NCBI GenBank assembly: GCA_903813345.2
Contig: CAIIXF020000009.1
Coordinates: forward strand, 19,185,759 to 19,249,758
Length of the DNA stretch: 64,000 nt
Reading direction: 5' to 3'
From: Owenia fusiformis
Lineage: Eukaryota; Annelida; Polychaeta; Sabellida; Oweniidae
In this document: positions 5,488-57,500 of the stretch, piece by piece
Layout: each line of letters begins with the position of its first letter
Numbering within the stretch: the stretch's first letter is position 1
The notes under the pieces: generated by a model
Databases searched by the model: none
The model's input: the letters and a program-made list of their open reading frames with translations, nothing else
Told to the model about the DNA's origin: nothing
Program-made: the position numbers and the translations under genes

Positions 5488-5569
5488 GTTAGCGTGGCCG
5501 AGCGGTCTAAGGCGCTGGTTTAAGGCACCAGTCTCTTCGGAGGCGTGGGTTCGAATCCCACCGCTGACA
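5488..5569 (+). tRNA. tRNA-Leu, anticodon AAG
   Basis: This is a complete type II tRNA of 82 nt. The acceptor arm GTTAGCG pairs with CGCTGAC (one G-T pair) and is followed by discriminator A. The anticodon stem CTGGT/ACCAG encloses loop TTAAGGC, giving anticodon AAG at 5522-5524, which reads CTT and, through inosine, CTC. The long variable arm and the T arm GTGGG/TTCGAAT/CCCAC are intact. Box A (TGGCCGAGCGG, 5495-5505) and box B (GGTTCGAATCC, 5548-5558) are intact, and TTTT at 5572-5575 can terminate pol III. No intron. Very probably functional. Confidence 0.97.
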
Positions 5570-10085: not shown

Positions 10086-10177
10086 TTAAGCTTGCAAATC
10101 TAGACCAAATCCTAGTTTATGACCACCTGCATTGAAGTTCTTAGCATCCACAAGTGCTGATAGGTTTAAGGTTACAC
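10086..10177 (-). CDS. VDAC: VDAC exon 9 (last coding exon)
   Basis: Encodes [20 protein letters not shown] and the end GFGLDLQA, then TAA at 10086-10088. The acceptor is TTCCAG ending at 10178. It joins the GATG end of exon 8 in frame. Confidence 0.95.
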
Positions 10178-13100
10178 CTGGAAGCAAAGGTTACAAACAT
10201 ATATTGTCATAACTATGAAGTTTTCAATATATCAGCGCGAAAAAAACTTCAAATAGACAGCTGTGATCTGTTTGACCTCATTGTGATTGCATGATAGCAG
10301 TTTTCTAATCCTGTTCAGATAAGTTAATCTTCATTGATATTTTCAGAGAGATTCCCAACTTATGATCATCATTGACAGGATTTATGAACAAAGAAATGAA
10401 AATGAAAAAAGAAGAACAATGGCTATTGACTACATTATATTGAAGTACCTAAAAAGTACTATGAAGTAAAACAGTTTCACATGAAATAATTTTATTGAAA
10501 ATTTATTTTTCGGGTGTAAATGTGTAAATGGGAAATTCATTCAGTTATGACATTTCAATGTCTATAAGATTCAACGCCTGATGGGGGCCTTGTATAAATA
10601 AAAAACATCTTCCAAACAGAGAACAGGAAAGTTGTTGAACATACTTACCATCTCTAACCTTCTGTGAGTAGGCCAATCCAATTTGACTGGAGTTGTTCAC
10701 TTTAGCCTGAAACAAGTTGGCAGTTATTAACAAATGATCTAGATATTGGCTGTAATTGAATTATTTAAATGGGATTAGAGCTCAGTAATACCACTACTGT
10801 TGTAGTAAATCACAGATATCAATTGCAATGTGTCATCTTTGCTCTAGTTTATTCCCATTGACACATAATGCCATTAATTATTTCATTAACAAGGGGTTTT
10901 CTTGAAAATGTGCTTGTCAAGTTGGTGCAGCAAAACTGAAATAACTTTCATTGAATATGCATGAAAACATAAGAAATTACTGTACAAACTGCATCGGCTT
11001 CCTTCTTGATAACACAGTTCTAAATAAGAAATTTTACACTGCAACTCATGACCTTATATTAGATAAAAAACTATGTAGCTTATGCTTCACTTACTCTAAA
11101 TGTACTGTCTGGTTCTGGTGTATATTTAGCAGCAAGGCTGAACTTGGTGGCGTTACTGCCAGCAGCCCACGACAATTGAACGCCAGTCTCCAAGTTACTG
11201 TTCAATTTCTGGTACACAGAACCACCAAATTCAGCACCATCATTCCTGAAATAATATCCAGAAATAATGATTGTCAAATATAGACAAGGCACAACAGGCA
11301 AAATGTCACCATCTGCCATTTGTTAAACACCAACTACCAAACAATGTTCACAAATAAGTTGAGGACTAACAAAATGTAATAAAAGCTAGAAGACAAAAAT
11401 GTACAACTTAATCATCCTAGTTTAATACATACTGCCTCAATTATAAATAAGAATGAGCTCAGGGTTATTTGTAATCCTCAGGGACTAAAACCCTTAATAT
11501 TAACGAGATATAAATCATCACAGCTCATAAGACAAAACTAAATGGAGAGTATATTAATGTATACATACACATTGGTAGTGAGTTGGAAATCGCCACTTGA
11601 GTAACCTACACTGAAATTGTTGCGGGATAGTTTTGACTTTGAGGTATCAAATGACATTTGGTAGCCTGCCAACCATCCATTATAACTGAAAACAAAATTA
11701 TTATGTTAAATTATACATAGTTGAATAGAATAAATCAATAAAGAACAGTTTTGAAGCAACAGAAAGGTATCTATATAATATGATGATGGATGAACATAAC
11801 ACTGTATTTCACAAACTTTGCAATATAAAAATGGAACATACTCATAATTTCAATAAACATCAATATTGATAATTGTTATGCTAATAAATTGACTACTTAT
11901 GTTTTTATCTGCTATCAAGCCAAGAATTAAGAGTTATACCCTAGAACTCCAGCTCCATGCACTGTGGGCCCAGCAAAGTCAAAGTCCACATCAACATTAG
12001 CATTTACATATTCCTGTTTGTATGCTGTCTTTATTTTGCCACTCTTCTTGCTGCAATATGAAGCATTCACTGATGAATATTTTGACACCTTGTATCCAAC
12101 CTTAATTTGGGCTTGATGTTTGCTAAAACATTATTAGGAAAATATGCAGCGCATACCTATTATTTCAAAACAATCAAAAATTAAATGTAGCATAGCCTCA
12201 AAAAATAATAAAAACAAGAATTGCGCTAATAATACAGCAAGCACCAAACGATTTACCAAAATCACCTGTTGTTTTGAGAAATTTTGCATATCAAAATTAT
12301 GTTTTGTAATAATTTTGTCTGTTTTTATTTCCCTTTTGTCAGTTGGCAGAAATTCTAATGATACTTTTTACTTTTACAATTTTCAAACTATATGTCGTGC
12401 TGCAATATAATGTAATTCTAACATGAGCTCAGGTGTCATTTTGAAATCTCTACAGACCGAAATCCATTCATACGAACGAGACAATCTCATCACAGCTCAA
12501 TATGTAATACATGTGCCATGTATGAAGGCTTCTCCCATTTAACCAATCAATGTGCTAGGCCTCACATACTTAAATTAAATAGTGAAACTGACAACCAGAT
12601 AATGTTATGACATTAACTTACCCTGTCTGTGGTGCAAAGGAAGTGTCAAAAGTCAATTTTAGACCCTTTGCAAGCTGGTCTTCAATTGCAATTTCTGTAG
12701 CTAGAACATTGTCAGTATTCCAATTTTCGGTAAAAGTCAGACCTGCAAAACAGAACAAGAAGACTGGGATAAACATCACACTTTTTAATGAACATTCAAA
12801 ATGGCCACCAACTAATTCTCAGGATGCTCAAAACAATCAATCTTGGCAATAGTCTACTCTTGCAACTGTAAAAATTTCAACAGGTAGGCAGTTTTCCTGG
12901 AATTTTGATGACAAGGTTTATGTGGCACCCATCTGCCCATCCAACAGCACAAGACATAACAACATAGCACTTTGAAAAAATGCAATCAAAACAAAATTCT
13001 GTATATGAGCCTTAAGGTCAGGGTGCATGTTTTTTGAATTTTGCTGCAACCCTCAATAGGGTCACATGTTATTTTTCAAATTTGAATCACTCCTTCCCCA

Positions 13101-15286
13101 CAATCTCTCACTTTTGCACAACAAGTGCACTAATGTACCTAGAAAATAATGTAGAGAAGAATGTTTTGATAAAAAAGTATATAAAAACCAGAACAACGGC
13201 AACGCCAAAGCGTAGCGAATCCCATCGAACAGAAATGGCTGGCATTTTTACAAACGAATAGCAAATATCATAAAACAACACTCCAGAAAGGCCACCATTT
13301 TCAAAATGGTTGCTCACTAGCCAAGTTGTCATCAGAAGAAATAATATGCTTTTCAGTAGCCACCTCTAAAATTTTTGAAAAATCGCACACGTACTTGTAA
13401 AATAACACACACATAAAAATGGTGGCCAATTTTTCAAAATGGCCGACTACTCCCCAAAGTGTCTTTAGACAGTGTACAATGCTTATAGTATTCACATACC
13501 AAATATGAACAAAATCGCTCCACTATTTTTTGAGTTATAGCAAAAATCGTAAAATGATGAGTAAAGGCCGCCATTTTTCAAGATGGCTGCCATGTGCTTC
13601 TTTAATATCTACATTTGTAGCATTATTAATGTCTTTTTTAATTTTTTTACATTTAAAACATATTGATATAACAGTTTTACATATTGCACCTAAATTACTG
13701 TAAAATCGGCACTAAAATGGCCGCCATTTAGAAATGAGCGGCCATTTTGAAAATCGGCTTTCGAGCAGAACTTTTACCCCCATAAGGTATATGTGTACAA
13801 AATATGAACAAAATCAGGCCAACGGTATTTGAGTTATTGCCTGGACGGACGGACAGACAGACGGACGTACGGAGGCATTCCCTATATCCCTCCGAACTTC
13901 GTTCGATGGGATAACAAGAAAATTCAGTGAAAAAAATTCAGAAAATTTACAGAATTTTTTCACTGAATTTTTTCGGTTCTTATACATCTTACAAAACAAA
14001 CCTTCTCATCAGTCTTTTCTAGGCACATAAGTGCACTCTTTGTGCAAAACTGGGAGATGTAGACAATGTGGGGAAGGAGTGATTCCTGTTTGAAAAATAA
14101 CATGGGACTCAATAGGGGAATGCAGCAAAATTCTGAACATGCACCCTGGTCTTATAGAGTTATCCCAACATTAGGTTTAGTGTTTACTTCAACGTTCAAG
14201 CCGAGTTTACCATGGTAACATTTTTTGGCTTTTATGTCTACTTATTCTATTTGTTCTGATTAACACAAACAAAATTCTTCTTAATACTAAGTTGATTGTG
14301 AGCTCAGGATATTTTGTAATCGTCAGGGACTTGAAACCCTTAATATTAACGAGATATAAATCATCACAGCTCACATCGCAAAAAGATTCGAAAAAACTGA
14401 AAGCAAAAGAATCCTCTAAACTTACCATATTCTCCCCACTTATATTTAGTTTCAAGGTTAGCATTTATTTTTCCTGTGTCTTGATTAGAGCTGCCACAAG
14501 TTTTGAACTCTACTCCGTTTGATGACTTAGTTTTGACATCTAGTTTGTGGAATCCAAAATCTGAAAATTCAATAAAATCATCATGATAAACAATGACATG
14601 TAATTTCTTCTCAGCCTTGAGATGTGTCTGGTGAAACAGTAAGATGCTATGCGTATAAGAATGAATAAAAGATGATATTTAGGTGTTCCGTGATTCAGAA
14701 AGTATGCAGGACATAATTCAACTATAGGCAAATGTCTCCATGGTCAGAATGAATCATTTTTAAGGTGTAACATGAAGAATACGATGTCACATAATACTTT
14801 GGAAAATATTTAAGCGTTTGGACTTGTGAGGTCATTACATTCAGCAAGTAAAGTTAGTATTGACTTTTGCCTGGTATAAAATTTGAAAATATATGTAATA
14901 TTTGAAAATATCTAATAAATTTCCCAACCAAAATTGTGCCAATATTCAAAAATTGCTACAGAATAAATAAATACCATCAAATTATAATATTAACCAATAC
15001 TAAATATAGTATGTGTGAGTATATCTGACTTTTAGCTTATATCACTATCTAGAGAACGTAAAATAATATTGATATTTGTACTTAACCAGATTCAACTTTG
15101 ATGTTTATTACAGAGAAAATCAATACTAAACTGATACCAAGGACTGGTGCATAAAAGAGGGAACCAAACAACATAGCTGCTTACTTCAATTAGAATAATA
15201 TGTGGCAAAAATAACTTACTGAACCCCTTGCCGAACAGATCTCTGGCGGATTTGCCCAAATCTGAATAACTGGGTGGTACAGACAT
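10086..15286 (-). CDS. VDAC: VDAC, mitochondrial outer-membrane porin (gene model)
   Basis: Voltage-dependent anion channel: a 19-strand beta barrel in the mitochondrial outer membrane that passes ATP, ADP and other metabolites. Coding exons on the minus strand are 15286-15220, 14560-14426, 12742-12622, 12050 (or 12122)-11940, 11685-11569, 11245-11095, 10706-10649 and 10177-10086. All junctions are GT-AG and all phases agree. Using acceptor 12051 the product is 283 aa, the same length as human VDAC1, and alignable without gaps over the first 80 residues at least. The N-terminal helix starts [16 protein letters not shown]. Glu73 of the FTExW motif, GLKLTF, the [10 protein letters not shown] block and the end GGHKLGFGL are all present. 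Using the upstream acceptor gives 307 aa. The host introns carry six C/D snoRNA candidates. It shares a short upstream region with ABCG2, transcribed the other way. Confidence 0.97.
10307..10382 (-). ncRNA. Box C/D snoRNA candidate in VDAC intron 8
   Basis: On the minus strand an 8-bp terminal stem AATCCTGT/ACAGGATT closes the RNA. Box C ATGATGA is at 10372-10366, box D CTGA at 10318-10315 and a perfect internal D-prime CTGA at 10346-10343. The guide next to D-prime would pair through GAGATTCCCA (10 nt) with the conserved 28S rRNA segment GAGATTCCCACTG as I remember it. It is about 76 nt, in the host-sense orientation. The stem plus three boxes make this a strong candidate; the target is tentative. 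Confidence 0.8.
10649..10706 (-). CDS. VDAC: VDAC exon 8
   Basis: 58 bp encoding [19 protein letters not shown]. Acceptor TTTCAG, donor GTAAGTAT. AKVNNSS is invariant in animal VDACs. Confidence 0.95.
10776..10846 (-). ncRNA. Box C/D snoRNA candidate in VDAC intron 7, 28S guide
   Basis: The 6-bp terminal stem TAGAGC/GCTCTA brackets box C AAGATGA (one mismatch to RTGATGA, 10839-10833) and box D CTGA (10785-10782). The sequence just upstream of box D is complementary to AATACCACTACT (12 nt; plus-strand 10787-10798), which I recall as a conserved segment of metazoan 28S rRNA. By the D+5 rule the methylated base would be the A before CCACTACT. Length about 71 nt. Confidence 0.8.
11095..11245 (-). 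CDS. VDAC: VDAC exon 7
   Basis: 151 bp encoding [20 protein letters not shown] through TPEPDSTFR, the strand 13-16 region. Acceptor TTCAG, donor GTAAGTGA. Confidence 0.95.
11453..11528 (-). ncRNA. Box C/D snoRNA, type A copy 1, VDAC intron 6
   Basis: Minus strand: 6-bp terminal stem ATGAGC/GCTCAT, box C GTGATGA (11521-11515), D-prime CTGA (11481-11478), box D CTGA (11462-11459). A diverged second copy lies at 14298-14374; the stretch from box C for about 35 nt is nearly identical, while the region between D-prime and D has drifted. I do not recognise its target. Confidence 0.85.
11569..11685 (-). CDS. VDAC: VDAC exon 6
   Basis: 117 bp encoding [20 protein letters not shown] through GDFQLTTNV. 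Acceptor TTTTCAG, donor GTATGT; joins exon 5 within a Gly codon. Confidence 0.95.
11940..12050 (-). CDS. VDAC: VDAC exon 5, canonical form
   Basis: With the acceptor at 12051 (ATATTGCAG) the exon is 111 bp and encodes [20 protein letters not shown] then [18 protein letters not shown], which aligns with other animal VDACs without a gap. The polypyrimidine tract in front of this acceptor is poor. Confidence 0.85.
12051..12122 (-). CDS. VDAC: Possible 24-codon 5-prime extension of VDAC exon 5
   Basis: An upstream acceptor (TAATGTTTTAG, ending at 12123, with CTAAT-like branch sequence) leads into 72 bp with no stop, in frame with both neighbours. The encoded [20 protein letters not shown] resembles the following canonical segment (shared GK, IK, YK positions and alternating strand pattern). 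If used, the barrel would gain a beta-hairpin. It could instead be intron with accidental coding potential. Confidence 0.5.
12423..12500 (-). ncRNA. Box C/D snoRNA, type B copy 1, VDAC intron 4
   Basis: Minus strand: stem TGAGC/GCTCA, box C GTGATGA (12493-12487), box D CTGA (12432-12429). Upstream of a degenerate D-prime (ATGA, 12471-12468) the guide GTCTCGTTCGT is complementary over 11 nt to ACGAACGAGAC, a conserved stretch of 18S rRNA. The second copy is at 16176-16253. Confidence 0.85.
12622..12742 (-). CDS. VDAC: VDAC exon 4
   Basis: 121 bp encoding [20 protein letters not shown] through [15 protein letters not shown]. It includes Glu73 and the GLK motif. Acceptor TTTTGCAG, donor GTAAGTTA. 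Confidence 0.95.
13015..14152. mobile_element. MITE of about 1.14 kb in VDAC intron 3
   Basis: Long imperfect inverted repeats: CAGGGTGCATG...TTTTGCTGCA at the left and TGCAGCAAAATTCTGAACAT then GCACCCTGG at the right. The similarity continues over more than 100 bp (GGGGAAGGAGTGATTC against GAATCACTCCTTCCCC). A TA or TTA flanks both ends. The centre carries AAAATGG/GCCGCCATTTT motifs and a GGACGGACAGACAGACGG tract. Confidence 0.75.
14298..14374 (-). ncRNA. Box C/D snoRNA, type A copy 2, VDAC intron 3
   Basis: Minus strand: terminal stem GTGAGC/GCTCAC, with stem base changes that compensate those in the copy at 11453-11528 (ATGAGC/GCTCAT), box C GTGATGA (14367-14361), D-prime CTGA, box D CTGA (14307-14304). 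It lies about 50 nt downstream of the exon 3 donor. Confidence 0.85.
14426..14560 (-). CDS. VDAC: VDAC exon 3
   Basis: 135 bp encoding [20 protein letters not shown] through [12 protein letters not shown]. Acceptor TTTTCAG, donor GTAAGTTT. Confidence 0.95.
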
Positions 15287-15287
15287 T
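15220..15287 (-). CDS. VDAC: VDAC exon 2 with the start codon
   Basis: The acceptor TTTTCAG leaves a single A before ATG (15286-15284). Encodes [20 protein letters not shown], the voltage-sensing N-terminal helix. Donor GTAAGTTA. Confidence 0.95.
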
Positions 15288-17696
15288 CTGAAAATAAAAT
15301 GAGAAATAAATTTAAATAAGATGCAAGGTTAAGAGAATAATGCAACAATCAATTGTTACAATTAAACCAAAACACCATTGATGAATGATAGTTCTATATT
15401 AAGTGGGATTTGTATCATAAATTATATTGCTATATACATAGGTCTGAAATACAATTACCTGTCAATTTAGAACTGTACTTTGTATCTGAATCTTAAACTC
15501 AAGCTAAATATAATTTAACTAATTCATTGCCTTGATAACACGAATATTAGAGATGAATTATCTCAAGCTGAAATATATTTTATATGTACATCTTTAACAT
15601 ACTGCACTGAAAGCAGCATTAACTGATAAAAATTCATAAACACCATACAAACTTGGCTCTTTGAACTAAATGTTTTTGATAACTTATAAAGATACAGAGT
15701 TTTCTTCCTAATAAAAAGAAAAGCAAGTTCATACAACACAACTGCCTGACTTCCAATGGTAACTACTAACCAGTTTTCACGCTTGGCAATGGACAGTTTA
15801 CCTGTTGGCCCATGGGCTAAATGCCAATATGGTAAATCATGGCAATCATATCTTCAACCTTTATTGTGACCCAAAAATTTACTGACAATGTACAATTTAT
15901 GAAACTTATTTTCTGACCAGGTAACATTCACACAATAGTAGAATTCTAATATTTTGAATGAAATGTATAGTAATTATTGAAGCCTATTAATTGTATATGG
16001 ATATTATAAGCTGATTTTTGTAAAGTTCATGAAAACCTGTAGAAATAGTAAAAATGTGGAGAGCTTGGACACATACTTCTCAAGATCAATAAAAACTTGC
16101 ATTTTCTGATTTGGTAACATTATCAATGATACAGAAATGAGTCAACCAAAAAGACTTCTCCAAAACAAGGCATATATGAGCTCAGGTGTCATTTTGAAAT
16201 CTCTACGGACAGAAATCCATTCATACGAACGAGACAATCTCATCACAGCTCAATATATATGTATGTCCCAGAAATAAAGGAGTAAGTCGGTTTTACTCTC
16301 ATTTTTTATCTCTTGAATTTTGTGCTTGTGCTCATGCATGTGGCTATTTCAATCACAGGGCTATTTCGACATTGGCTCATTTTTCCGATTCATGTTTGTT
16401 TTTAAAAAATTTAAAAACAAATCAAAATCACCAACGAACTAGATGCTAATTCAAGATGTCCTATCCCAGAAAAATAAACTATTGTCAGTGGTCCAAATAA
16501 TGCTGGGGTCCAACTCCAAGCATCCTCCGATCACAGGGCTTCGAAATCTAGAATATATTCTTTCTTTTTACCCCCTGCGATAAGCAGTTAGCCTTTCCCC
16601 GATTAAGAACTCGCAATCTGATTGGCTGTCAGAAATCATGTATAAGTCATTGCGCATAATAAGACAACGTGATTCGGTTTAATCGGGCGCTTCCAAATTG
16701 GTTATAGCAGGGAGAAGGAGGTACGGATTCTGGATACCTGCTTAGGAGGATGAACTCCAAGTACCCCCATGACTCACTCTACCGACTCTGGGATGTTAGA
16801 TTGAAAATTCTTGTATAGAACAAACTGCTAAGTCGACACACGGTAACATTTCATTATTTCGTTATTTTCACCATATGAATTACTACCGAGAATTTGTGTT
16901 CAGATTCTACTTGTTTGGTTCGAGGAAATAACCTATGGTTTCAGTTATCTGACTTTTAATACGACGAATATTTTTCACGAGATCCGGACTCTTGTGTCCA
17001 AATATCATTGTACTGATGACGTCACATTTCTGGAACCACGGGAGCACAATTCAGATTTGGACAGACAAAAGTCTGGCGATAAAATATCACTGTTTTGGCC
17101 TCTTATCAATGCAGTATTGCTTGAATAACGATCATTGGTGATAAAAAAAGTATAAGAAGACGCTTCGAATGAGGTATGATTGGTCTCATATTTTTCAGAA
17201 ATGGCTCCACAATCGTCATTTTAGAATTTGAAATTTTCTGAGGTGTCTCATCTTGAAGAATATTTATTGAGCTACTGATTCTACTACAAAAGAATCTGGC
17301 CGGGATCTATGTATCAGCACTGCAAAATGGAAAATTGCCAAAAACTGAAGTCCTAAAAAAGCCCAAGACACTTCCTAATGTCAACCTCTATTTGGATAAC
17401 CATAGGACGTTGTAGAGGAAATAACTACTTCGTGCTAATAGGTAAAACAAAATAACAGAATGATACAATAACAACGTAAAAAACATGAAAGAATCCAACA
17501 GTGAATGTCAAAACAAGGTCACTTTTCCCCAAAAAATGTCGGCCATCTTGAAATTTCTAAATTTTGTTCTTCAGTAAAAACGTTTTCGTTTGAAACTAAC
17601 AAGCAAACGATCATTGGACAACTCTTTAAATCACAAAATAATTTAATAGGATCGAATTAAATCAGAAAACAGCATGAAATATAACACAATACTTAC
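15288..17696 (-). other. VDAC: VDAC intron 1
   Basis: 2.4 kb between the untranslated exon and the start exon. Apart from the snoRNA at 16176-16253 I see no further feature I can support. Confidence 0.7.
16176..16253 (-). ncRNA. Box C/D snoRNA, type B copy 2, VDAC intron 1
   Basis: Differs from the copy at 12423-12500 at only a couple of positions (for example ACGGACAG in place of ACAGACCG on the plus strand). Box C GTGATGA at 16246-16240, box D CTGA at 16185-16182, same 18S-complementary 11-nt guide. Such strict conservation inside an otherwise unrelated intron argues for function or recent copying. Confidence 0.85.
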
Positions 17697-54541: not shown

Positions 54542-57500
54542 CTGGAATTGCATTTAACAAAAAGTGAGCAAAAATAGACCCTCAAAACATTTTTCATTAT
54601 CAAGATGTTTTCTAATTTTTGAGATAACCTTTAACAAAAAGTGAGCAAAAATAGACCCCCAAAACATTTTTCATTATCAAGATGTTTTCTAGATAACCTT
54701 CAAATATGAGTTCTGTGAAAATAATTAATAATACAGATATGATATAATACTCTACTAAATCCAGTTATCATTCTCACCATTGATTTCTATAAGATTGGCA
54801 TTTTTCTGGTTTATGACGACATAGAATTCTCGTTGGTCAGATTTTTTTCCTACGACCCAGCAGTCTGTGATTGATTTAACAATCGTCTCACCTTCATCAA
54901 CATTCCTGCAAAATAAACATTTTATTTATTTGTGAATTTCATAAATTACATTATCATCATGTACAGGTATTCTTAGGTCTAGTTCAAGACTTGTGAAGCA
55001 ACTCTTAAATGATTAGTAAACCCAAATATTTTCTCTTAGAGTAAAAGGTAATGCAGAAATCCCTCTGCTGATTCTTGATTCTTGCTGCACATTTTTGGAG
55101 TTGTAAAATAGTTTTTAAAAGAATATGATCCTGTCCCTAGCCTCTCTGAGCTTACTCGGATTTAGAATGAAATAACTTTTGATTTTCTTTTAGAAGATAC
55201 CCTGAAGTGTAGGAATCCATAAGTTATTTTTTCAGGTTTGGGTAAAATCAATTTTTATGGCAGGTTATAGTGGCGCCATCTAGTGATTTTAAAGTTGCAG
55301 GGTGATAATCTTAATTAATTTTTTTTTCAGCCAAACCTAATTTCATATTTATTTTTTTGCTGTTTCCTTAGAGACTACTTCCTAAACTATGCATTTGAAT
55401 TTTTAGGTGATCCTGGAATGTCATTTGATGGGTCATTTTGCCTCAAATATACAGAAGCGCCACCTATAATCAAAGGTCTACCTTATAAAGTTTATTATTC
55501 TGAGGCTGTTATGGTAGATAAAATTGTTATTATTGGTGTAATAATTAGAACCATAAAGGGGACATATGATGCAGTATCAAATTAATATATGTGGGACATG
55601 GGAACTTAGAAAATTTTTTTTTGTAAAAGTGGAAGAAATTTGACAAAATATCAGTTTTTACATATTACCAAATACATATGCTTTTTATTTCTAAGGTAAA
55701 CCTAACATGATGTAACAAGTAGAAAAATATATATTTAGACAAGTTAAGCTTATGGTTGACAATTACGGTTATTAATGAATACATTGTAGACAGAATGAAA
55801 CCATGCATAAAAGGCGCCATCTATAGAAAATATATTTTTCTATAAGTTTCATTTGTTTGTAAATCATGTATGATTTTTGAAGGCAAAGTAAGAAACATAG
55901 AGAACAATGACAAAATTGAAAGCAAAATGCGCTTTTAGCCTCCCCAAGTCTTCCTGACCATTTCAAATATTGTACCTCCTAATAGATACATGCTATTTTA
56001 TGTACACTAACTATAAAGGATACTATCAAAATATAGATAAATTTCATCCAAAATACTTGAGAGTTGGTGAGTTAACGTAACTTTGGATGATCTTTCCAAT
56101 GGTATATCATACTAGGTACCATCTATTAAGGTCTTGGCTGTAGAGGGGGGGGGGGGGACGGGACTTATTTGACACACTGAATAAGTACTTTTAAATTATA
56201 AATGATTAATTACCAATTTTACAGCATCTATCTTGCTTGCCAGAAGAAAATCCTGAGACTGCCTCTTGCTGTGCTTTATAAATGTGACATCTTCACCAAA
56301 TCGCTTACGCAAATATTTGGTGACAAGTTGCCTTTGAACAGGGCTACGTCGAAGGCGGTCACAGATCTCTTTTCAAATCTCTGATACAGAGAAGGCTTTT
56401 CCTGTATTCAAGTCTTGTTGAATTTCATTGATGACATCATTAAATACATCATACATATTTGATTTATCATGAAGAGAATTTGAATCAGTACTTTTCTGGT
56501 ATTTATGGCTGTATTGTTTGTAACAATAGTTATGGTATAAGAGATCAGCTTCAATCACTCCTTTCACATCAGTGAGGTGACAGGTGCTGGTATACACTTC
56601 ATCCTGTAAGTGTTGGGTTTGTACAAGAAACTCGGTAGCTTTCTTCTCTTCATAAATTTGGGATTTTTCATATGTTTTGTTTTTTGTGACCTGATTACAA
56701 TATATACAAACATTCTGGTATTTAGGTACATCAACAGCTTCAACAGAGGGCCTTTGTGGTAGGGAACATTTCATTTGTTTGGGTTGTGCTGTTGACGAAT
56801 GAGGTGTATTTCCAACCATTCCTTCAATGGTTTCTTCAGTATCAGTTTCAGTTTCTTCAGTTTCTTCATTCCTTTGTGGAAGGGAACATTTCATTTGTTT
56901 GGGTTGTTCTGTTGAGGAATGAGGTGTGTTTCCAACCATTCCTTCAATGGTTTTTTCAGTATCAGTTTCAGTTTCTTCATTCCTTTGCGGAAGGGAACAT
57001 TTCATTTGTTTGGGTTGTGCTGTTGAGGAATGAGGTGTGTTTCCAACCATTCCTTCAATGGTTTCTACAGTATGCCGTTTTTGGGTCTATACTCTGTAGC
57101 AAGCATTGTTCATGTGATATAGAATAGGTGCGTTTTCAAGTTTGGCTAATTTCATACGTTGATAAACTTCATCATCTTTCATTTTGCTTATTCTAAGCAA
57201 GGTTGCAACACCTCTTGCTTGTCCAACAGTTGGCTTGACAAAATTGCTGTTACTGTCTTTAAAATCATCTTGGCAGATAATACATTTTCCTCTTTCAAAG
57301 TTTATAGAAGCCATTTAGGAAGTTAACTGGAGAAGAAATAGATTGTTAGTGATTTTAAAATATTCAATCTCTGGGTCTCAAAAATACAGTCACAATTCAG
57401 GATCATGCATAGTTTATCATGTAACTGAGTTCATTTTAGTTATTAACGTTAATTCGTTAATCCATATGCAAGGAAATTTGAAAAGCTGGATGTGATCATA

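Follow-up and report, generated by a model that had tools for sequence, protein, structure and literature searches.

Six box C/D snoRNA-like units along the VDAC gene of Owenia fusiformis, a probable multi-snoRNA host

Can the gene of a mitochondrial channel serve as host for a whole set of small nucleolar RNAs (snoRNAs)? The question is raised by a VDAC gene of the annelid Owenia fusiformis. The gene lies in a stretch of 64,000 nucleotides (nt) of contig CAIIXF020000009.1 (assembly GCA_903813345.2, positions 19,185,759 to 19,249,758), which is called the window below and gives the coordinates used here. An earlier note on the window had claimed six box C/D candidates in host-sense orientation in five or more VDAC introns, one segment of 71-78 nt in each of introns 1, 3, 4, 6, 7 and 8. 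All six are present, but their lengths are 71-79 nt and the placement of one of them in intron 1 is a prediction. The snoRNA-like units are on the minus strand, which is the sense strand of VDAC; five are located one each in the defined introns 3, 4, 6, 7 and 8, and the sixth is upstream of the first coding exon. Several host-sense units in separate introns, which is what makes a multi-snoRNA host, are thus found in five defined introns together with the predicted intron 1. The gene, the placement and strand of the units, their boxes and stems, their guide complementarity and the copies found in the assembly are all read directly from the DNA. With a confidence that is high though short of certainty, we read VDAC as a protein-coding multi-snoRNA host, with introns 1, 3, 4, 6, 7 and 8 yielding guides for the methylation of ribosomal RNA (rRNA), and the six intronic small RNA genes very probably guide rRNA modification.

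The host gene and its units

Is the host an intact gene? Between 15287 and 10086 the minus strand has eight coding exons, bounded by GT donors and AG acceptors, which together code for an intact VDAC (Table 1). The model product of 307 amino acids matches Porin_3 with an E value of 1.4e-89 and the VDAC2 chain 4bum with 1.9e-126, and the identity given in the earlier note is borne out by both matches. A search of the 498-Mb assembly gave eight exon matches, 8/8 at one locus, and VDAC is apparently single-copy as far as this search reaches. Since an acceptor AG sits one base ahead of the ATG in the exon 2 region, we infer a 5' untranslated region (UTR) exon and an intron 1. The start of transcription, where a 5'-terminal oligopyrimidine tract would be expected of a multi-snoRNA host, was not located when the sequence upstream was read by eye. 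Two further properties of the gene were observed. The first 72 nt of exon 5 (window 12051-12122), corresponding to residues 110-131, are unaligned to 4bum, and an internal acceptor in this exon, TTGCAG/CAAG, would drop the same 72 nt in frame; because of these two features VDAC may have two isoforms. Intron 3 holds an element of about 1.1 kb (window 13013-14154) which has terminal inverted repeats (73 nt at 84%, 70 nt at 77%) and carries a GACGGACGGACAGACAGACGGACG stretch.

Table 1. VDAC coding exons and box C/D units in the window.
Feature	Position	Strand	Basis
SNORD79 (type A), VDAC intron 8	10307..10382	-	Rfam RF00152; guide TGGGAATCTC at D', 10-bp duplex with 28S at the Am3809 equivalent
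Type D unit, VDAC intron 7	10776..10846	-	Box C with one mismatch, box D, stem of 6 bp; guide AGTAGTGGTATT at D, 12-bp match to 28S AATACCACTACT
Type C1, SNORD30-like guide, VDAC intron 6	11453..11528	-	Exact box C, CTGA, 6-bp stem; ATCTCGTTAAT to 28S Am3804 equivalent
Type B1, VDAC intron 4	12424..12499	-	Exact box C, CTGA, stem; GTCTCGTTCGT to 18S (Am1383 human / Am1327 Arabidopsis equivalent)
Type C2, C1 paralogue, VDAC intron 3	14297..14375	-	92% identity to C1
Type B2, B1 paralogue, upstream of first coding exon (predicted 5'-UTR intron 1)	16177..16252	-	74/76 bases identical to B1
VDAC exon 2, with start codon	15220..15287	-	Gene model
VDAC exon 3	14426..14560	-	Gene model
VDAC exon 4	12622..12742	-	Gene model
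VDAC exon 5 (first part unaligned to 4bum)	11940..12122	-	Gene model and 4bum comparison
VDAC exon 6	11569..11685	-	Gene model
VDAC exon 7	11095..11245	-	Gene model
VDAC exon 8	10649..10706	-	Gene model
VDAC exon 9, coding part up to stop	10086..10177	-	Gene model

How many such units would be expected by chance? Box C (RTGATGA), box D (CTGA) and a terminal stem are exact in 5/6 units; the exception is the unit of intron 7, whose box C has one mismatch. Both strands of the window were scanned strictly, for exact RTGATGA and CTGA with a stem of at least 5 base pairs (bp). The minus strand gave 5 matches, each of them in VDAC sense, the plus strand gave 0, and there were 0 elsewhere in the window. 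The expectation from shuffled sequences is a mean of 0.01 and a maximum of 1 for the VDAC stretch (500 shuffles), and a mean of 0.12 and a maximum of 2 for a 64-kb strand (60 shuffles). Because of its mismatch the unit of intron 7 escapes the strict scan. When the scan was relaxed (at most one mismatch in box C, stem of at least 4), the window gave 17 minus and 7 plus matches, where 20 shuffles averaged 7.65 per strand. As the 7 matches of the plus strand are set against a shuffled mean of 7.65, the window-wide lax scan is unspecific and was discarded as evidence. Over the VDAC stretch the lax scan gave 9 sense matches against 0.88 (100 shuffles, maximum 4), and 3/9 are not units. An intermediate scan (at most one box-C mismatch, stem of at least 6) gave 5 VDAC-sense matches against 0.07 (300 shuffles, maximum 2); the intron-7 unit passes, B1 and B2 are lost, and 1/5 is an artefact inside the transposon-like element. 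The intron-7 unit draws its support mainly from its 12-bp guide.

Some further candidates were rejected. The lax matches at 13917-14020 are inside the intron-3 inverted-repeat element, and the one at 10226-10341 shares bases with the SNORD79 unit but in a different register. Introns 2 and 5 gave no further unit in a search with at most one box-C mismatch, a stem of at least 5 and seven D-box variants; the single new match of this search, 11915-11997, overlaps exon 5.

Guides and predicted rRNA targets

Which rRNA sites would these units address? The guides are directly upstream of D or D', with duplexes of 10, 11, 11 and 12 bp for types A, B, C and D and spacers of 1, 0, 0 and 1. For all types the duplexes were judged against rRNA letters from other organisms. 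Of 7 contigs from the genome collection, 5 were scanned with Rfam; among these L010, which has a long match to eukaryotic 28S, was taken as the 28S reference, and L011 has two shorter matches. The viral and plasmid collections gave no usable rRNA, and three matches from one search there looked unlike rRNA by eye.

The intron-8 unit scores 50.9 bits against the cut-off of 47 for Rfam RF00152 and is thus a SNORD79. Its D' guide forms a duplex with positions 2692-2701 of the L010 28S, and the D'+5 register falls on an A. The type C guide ATCTCGTTAAT forms its duplex with positions 2686-2696 of the same 28S, adjoining the SNORD79 target. Table 1 of PMC3511168 gives 28S Am3809 as the target of U79 and 28S Am3804 as that of U30. 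In types A and C the +5 positions fall on two As with a spacing of five bases, which matches the A3804/A3809 spacing, and in type B the +5 position is likewise an A. Are the type C units then members of the U30 family? The snoU30 model RF01283 gives 26.2 bits for C2 and 22 bits for C1 against a cut-off of 45. Because of these scores and the D' box ATTA they are not classed as U30 members, though by their guide they would work like U30. The RF00088 (U30) profile had no match in the assembly at E <=1, a search in which C1 and C2 were missed too, so that absence of a U30 is unproven.

The type B guide GTCTCGTTCGT has the same letters as the guide of snoZ43 (RF00330), for which type B scores 18.3 bits, under the cut-off of 43. 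RF00330 is listed for 18S Am1327 in Arabidopsis and Am1383 in human (Table 1 of PMC3511168), and the 18S letters ACGAACGAGAC are present in the published primer FF390 in an excerpt of PMC10820024. A match to vertebrate SNORD61 was dropped, as the same Table 1 gives Um1442 for U61 and 18S Am1327 for RF00330. For type D, the guide AGTAGTGGTATT is one base from box D and matches 28S AATACCACTACT letters, which occur in 28S primers for trout and human cells (excerpts of PMC6856654 and PMC4486110). This guide is predicted to address the A of GAAAT-A-CCACTAC, within the 28S segment GAAATACCACTAC. According to the excerpt of PMC6856654 the human primers at this site belong to the assay of C4032, the U75 site; C4032 itself is excluded as the target, the predicted base being an A. 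This A was not found in the conserved-site Table 1 of PMC3511168, as far as the available part goes, and type D matched no Rfam family at cut-off.

These results also decide how the guide matches given in the earlier note fared. All three types found support, GAGATTCCCA (28S) by pairing with the L010 28S, and the 18S match of type B and the 28S match of type D by the published primers, but the clear ATCTCGTTAAT guide for 28S Am3804 in introns 3 and 6 had been missed. The covariance check suggested there placed the SNORD79 above the Rfam cut-off and left the other five units below.

Several points weigh against VDAC as a host of this kind and should be noticed. Exon 1, the 5'-UTR exon, was not located upstream of the first coding exon. 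The Rfam gathering score is reached by 1/6 units, and 5/6 are below every cut-off. The D' boxes are non-canonical, ATGA in type B and ATTA in type C. The distances from unit to 3' splice site in the five defined introns are 69 (intron 7), 129 (SNORD79, intron 8), 207, 301 and 1554 nt, without fixed spacing, the longest being stretched by the inverted-repeat element. The rRNA of the species itself was not found in the assembly with a 22-nt pattern, so the pairing uses 28S and 18S letters of other organisms. L010 differs by eye at the type D site, and for this reason the type D target rests on the published primer letters. Matches of 11 bp do arise by chance. A second 11-bp run of C1, to L010 101-111, covers box D itself; because it spans the box it cannot be a guide and is taken as chance.

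How would the set work? Intronic snoRNAs are released by splicing, debranching and exonuclease trimming to a C/D particle, which carries out guided 2'-O-methylation. Transcription, processing, protein binding and methylation are predicted here, as is intron 1, from the sequence. The VDAC pre-mRNA would be spliced, and introns 1, 3, 4, 6, 7 and 8 would be debranched and shortened from either end until box C/D snoRNAs are left, with each unit protected by its terminal stem and the proteins of the C/D kink-turn. The mature RNAs would then guide 2'-O-methylation of the fibrillarin type: SNORD79 in intron 8 at A3809 of 28S in human numbering, the type C units of introns 3 and 6 at the neighbouring 28S A3804, type B in introns 1 and 4 at 18S A1383, and type D in intron 7 at an A in the 28S segment GAAATACCACTAC. 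In such a scenario rRNA methylation might be coupled to VDAC expression, as the earlier note had suggested.

Copies, origin and rival explanations

Where else do these units occur, and how did the set arise? In a pattern search of the assembly, types B and C each had 2 matches, every one of them in VDAC, and the reversed control gave 0; type D had 1 match, in VDAC. BLAST of the assembly with types B, C and D gave 2, 2 and 1 matches, again all in VDAC. VDAC is thus provisionally the sole source of the three types, since masked stretches or distant variants could hide copies. SNORD79 has three copies at E <=0.001, one in VDAC and two on G000 contig C10 (L001 1501-1572 and 1945-2015), on the coding strand of an RPS6-type gene. 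One of the latter is between two coding segments; the other comes after the second segment, with the exon beyond it not seen. The first segment matches Ribosomal_S6e (E 1.1e-32), and the second, which has no Pfam match alone, was called RPS6 by reading its letters.

The two paralogous pairs give a further clue. From 11 to 100 nt outside the units, 22, 25, 20 and 27 of 90 bases match, against a background of 25.2 (standard deviation 4.3). Likewise, the SNORD79 copies of VDAC and RPS6 have the body and a few stem bases in common. This pattern fits copying of the body only, or old duplications with diverged introns. The set probably arose by duplication of units within the gene (B1/B2, C1/C2) and by exchange of SNORD79 between VDAC and RPS6.

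Are all six units functional? One explanation is that some of them are recent non-functional copies, that is retrocopies or pseudogenes, and that expression is limited to one unit of each pair, or to SNORD79. The pairs are near-identical inside and unrelated outside, as a recent body-only copy would be; two SNORD79 copies exist already at an RPS6 gene; C1 and C2 differ upstream of box D, and type D is without a second copy. However, in each pair both units retain intact boxes C and D, stems and the named guides, and all six units are host-sense. Between C1 and C2 the terminal stem has one double change, A-U to G-C as read from the letters, which is compensatory and preserves pairing, and the changes spare the ATCTCGTTAAT guide. 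Mere decay is disfavoured because of the compensatory change and the unaltered guide, and we regard this explanation as unlikely. Another explanation is that the units act mainly on their host, on VDAC splicing or intron stability, rather than on rRNA. A SNORD75 mutation did alter Gas5 splicing in human cells (excerpt of PMC6856654), but the guides that adjoin D or D' fit conserved sites in rRNA, a fit that action on the host would not need, and this explanation is very improbable. A dispersed repeat, either a short interspersed nuclear element (SINE) or a miniature inverted-repeat transposable element (MITE) with chance box C/D letters, is largely refuted and hardly worth crediting, for although an element bounded by long terminal inverted repeats does lie in intron 3, with lax scan matches inside it, none of the six units overlaps that element and types B, C and D were found nowhere else in the 498 Mb at the sensitivity used.

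If VDAC is a multi-snoRNA host, could a ribosome depend on it? B1 and C1 align along their length, and the targets of types B and C have the letters ACGAGA in common; it is possible that the two types split from one dual-target ancestor. In its strongest form, which we hold as a tentative and rather doubtful proposal, VDAC would be the sole source of the guides for 18S A1383, 28S A3804 and the GAAATACCACTAC segment, full ribosome methylation would need VDAC transcription, and types B and C may be sister guides from a dual-target ancestor inside the gene. If VDAC is indeed the sole source of three guides, the locus offers a clean natural test of whether host expression limits rRNA methylation.

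Some observations fall outside the gene. The window has a tRNA-Leu with anticodon AAG at 5488-5569 (Rfam, 55 bits) and, on the minus strand at 56373-57050, an open reading frame inside which the unit MVGNTPHSS..PKQMKCSLPQR is repeated. Among the contigs, L009, L013, L014 and L015 are filed as bacterial metagenome-assembled genomes, and one end of each has a short stretch of eukaryotic 28S; L009, L013 and L014 have no rRNA at the Rfam cut-off. The four may be elements of an animal host inserted in ribosomal DNA.

Comparison with known hosts and families

Is such a host without precedent? SNORD30 resides in SNHG1, which is non-coding. Like GAS5 and SNHG1/UHG, the multi-snoRNA hosts of vertebrates, VDAC has one C/D snoRNA-like unit per intron in many introns; unlike these non-coding genes, it is an intact protein-coding gene. 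As for the units themselves, type C has the guide ATCTCGTTAAT in common with SNORD30/U30 (RF00088, RF01283), and C1 also has a C'-like TGAGGA, but the D' box is ATTA and not CTGA. Type B shares the guide letters GTCTCGTTCGT with snoZ43 (RF00330) and is 76 nt long, against a model of 100.

Coding hosts are known too. RPL4, RPS8, RPL17, GNL3 and HSPA8 are ribosomal-protein, nucleolar or chaperone genes, and ATP5B, COX7C and HSPA9 encode mitochondrial proteins. Like the first five, VDAC has intronic and partly paralogous units over several introns of a coding gene. The chicken table in an excerpt of PMC2653536 gives five C/D snoRNAs each for RPL4 and RPS8, four for RPL17 and GNL3 and three for HSPA8, so the six units of VDAC are one more than in the fullest of these hosts. 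The same table has ATP5B (U59), COX7C and HSPA9 (U63), and MRPL3 gained SNORA58 before the divergence of primates (excerpt of PMC3511168). Like these four, VDAC is a nuclear gene for a mitochondrial protein and hosts snoRNA-like units; unlike them, with one unit per entry, it has six. To call a mitochondrial porin an unusual type of host, as the earlier note did, was therefore an overstatement. VDAC as a snoRNA host was not seen in searches of the open-licence literature of PubMed Central (PMC), nor was the word snoRNA in an excerpt of the porin-evolution paper PMC1838418. Human Gas5 has SNORD79 among its ten snoRNAs (excerpt of PMC6856654). According to PMC3511168, what a snoRNA host mainly requires is broad expression, and SNORD79 at both RPS6 and VDAC fits the movement of snoRNAs among broadly expressed genes described there. 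Precedents thus exist for hosts of several snoRNAs, for coding hosts that carry four or five units and for hosts that encode mitochondrial proteins. What VDAC adds is a new and unusually full host, by which the gene of a mitochondrial outer-membrane channel would be added to the multi-snoRNA hosts; its six units fall into four types.

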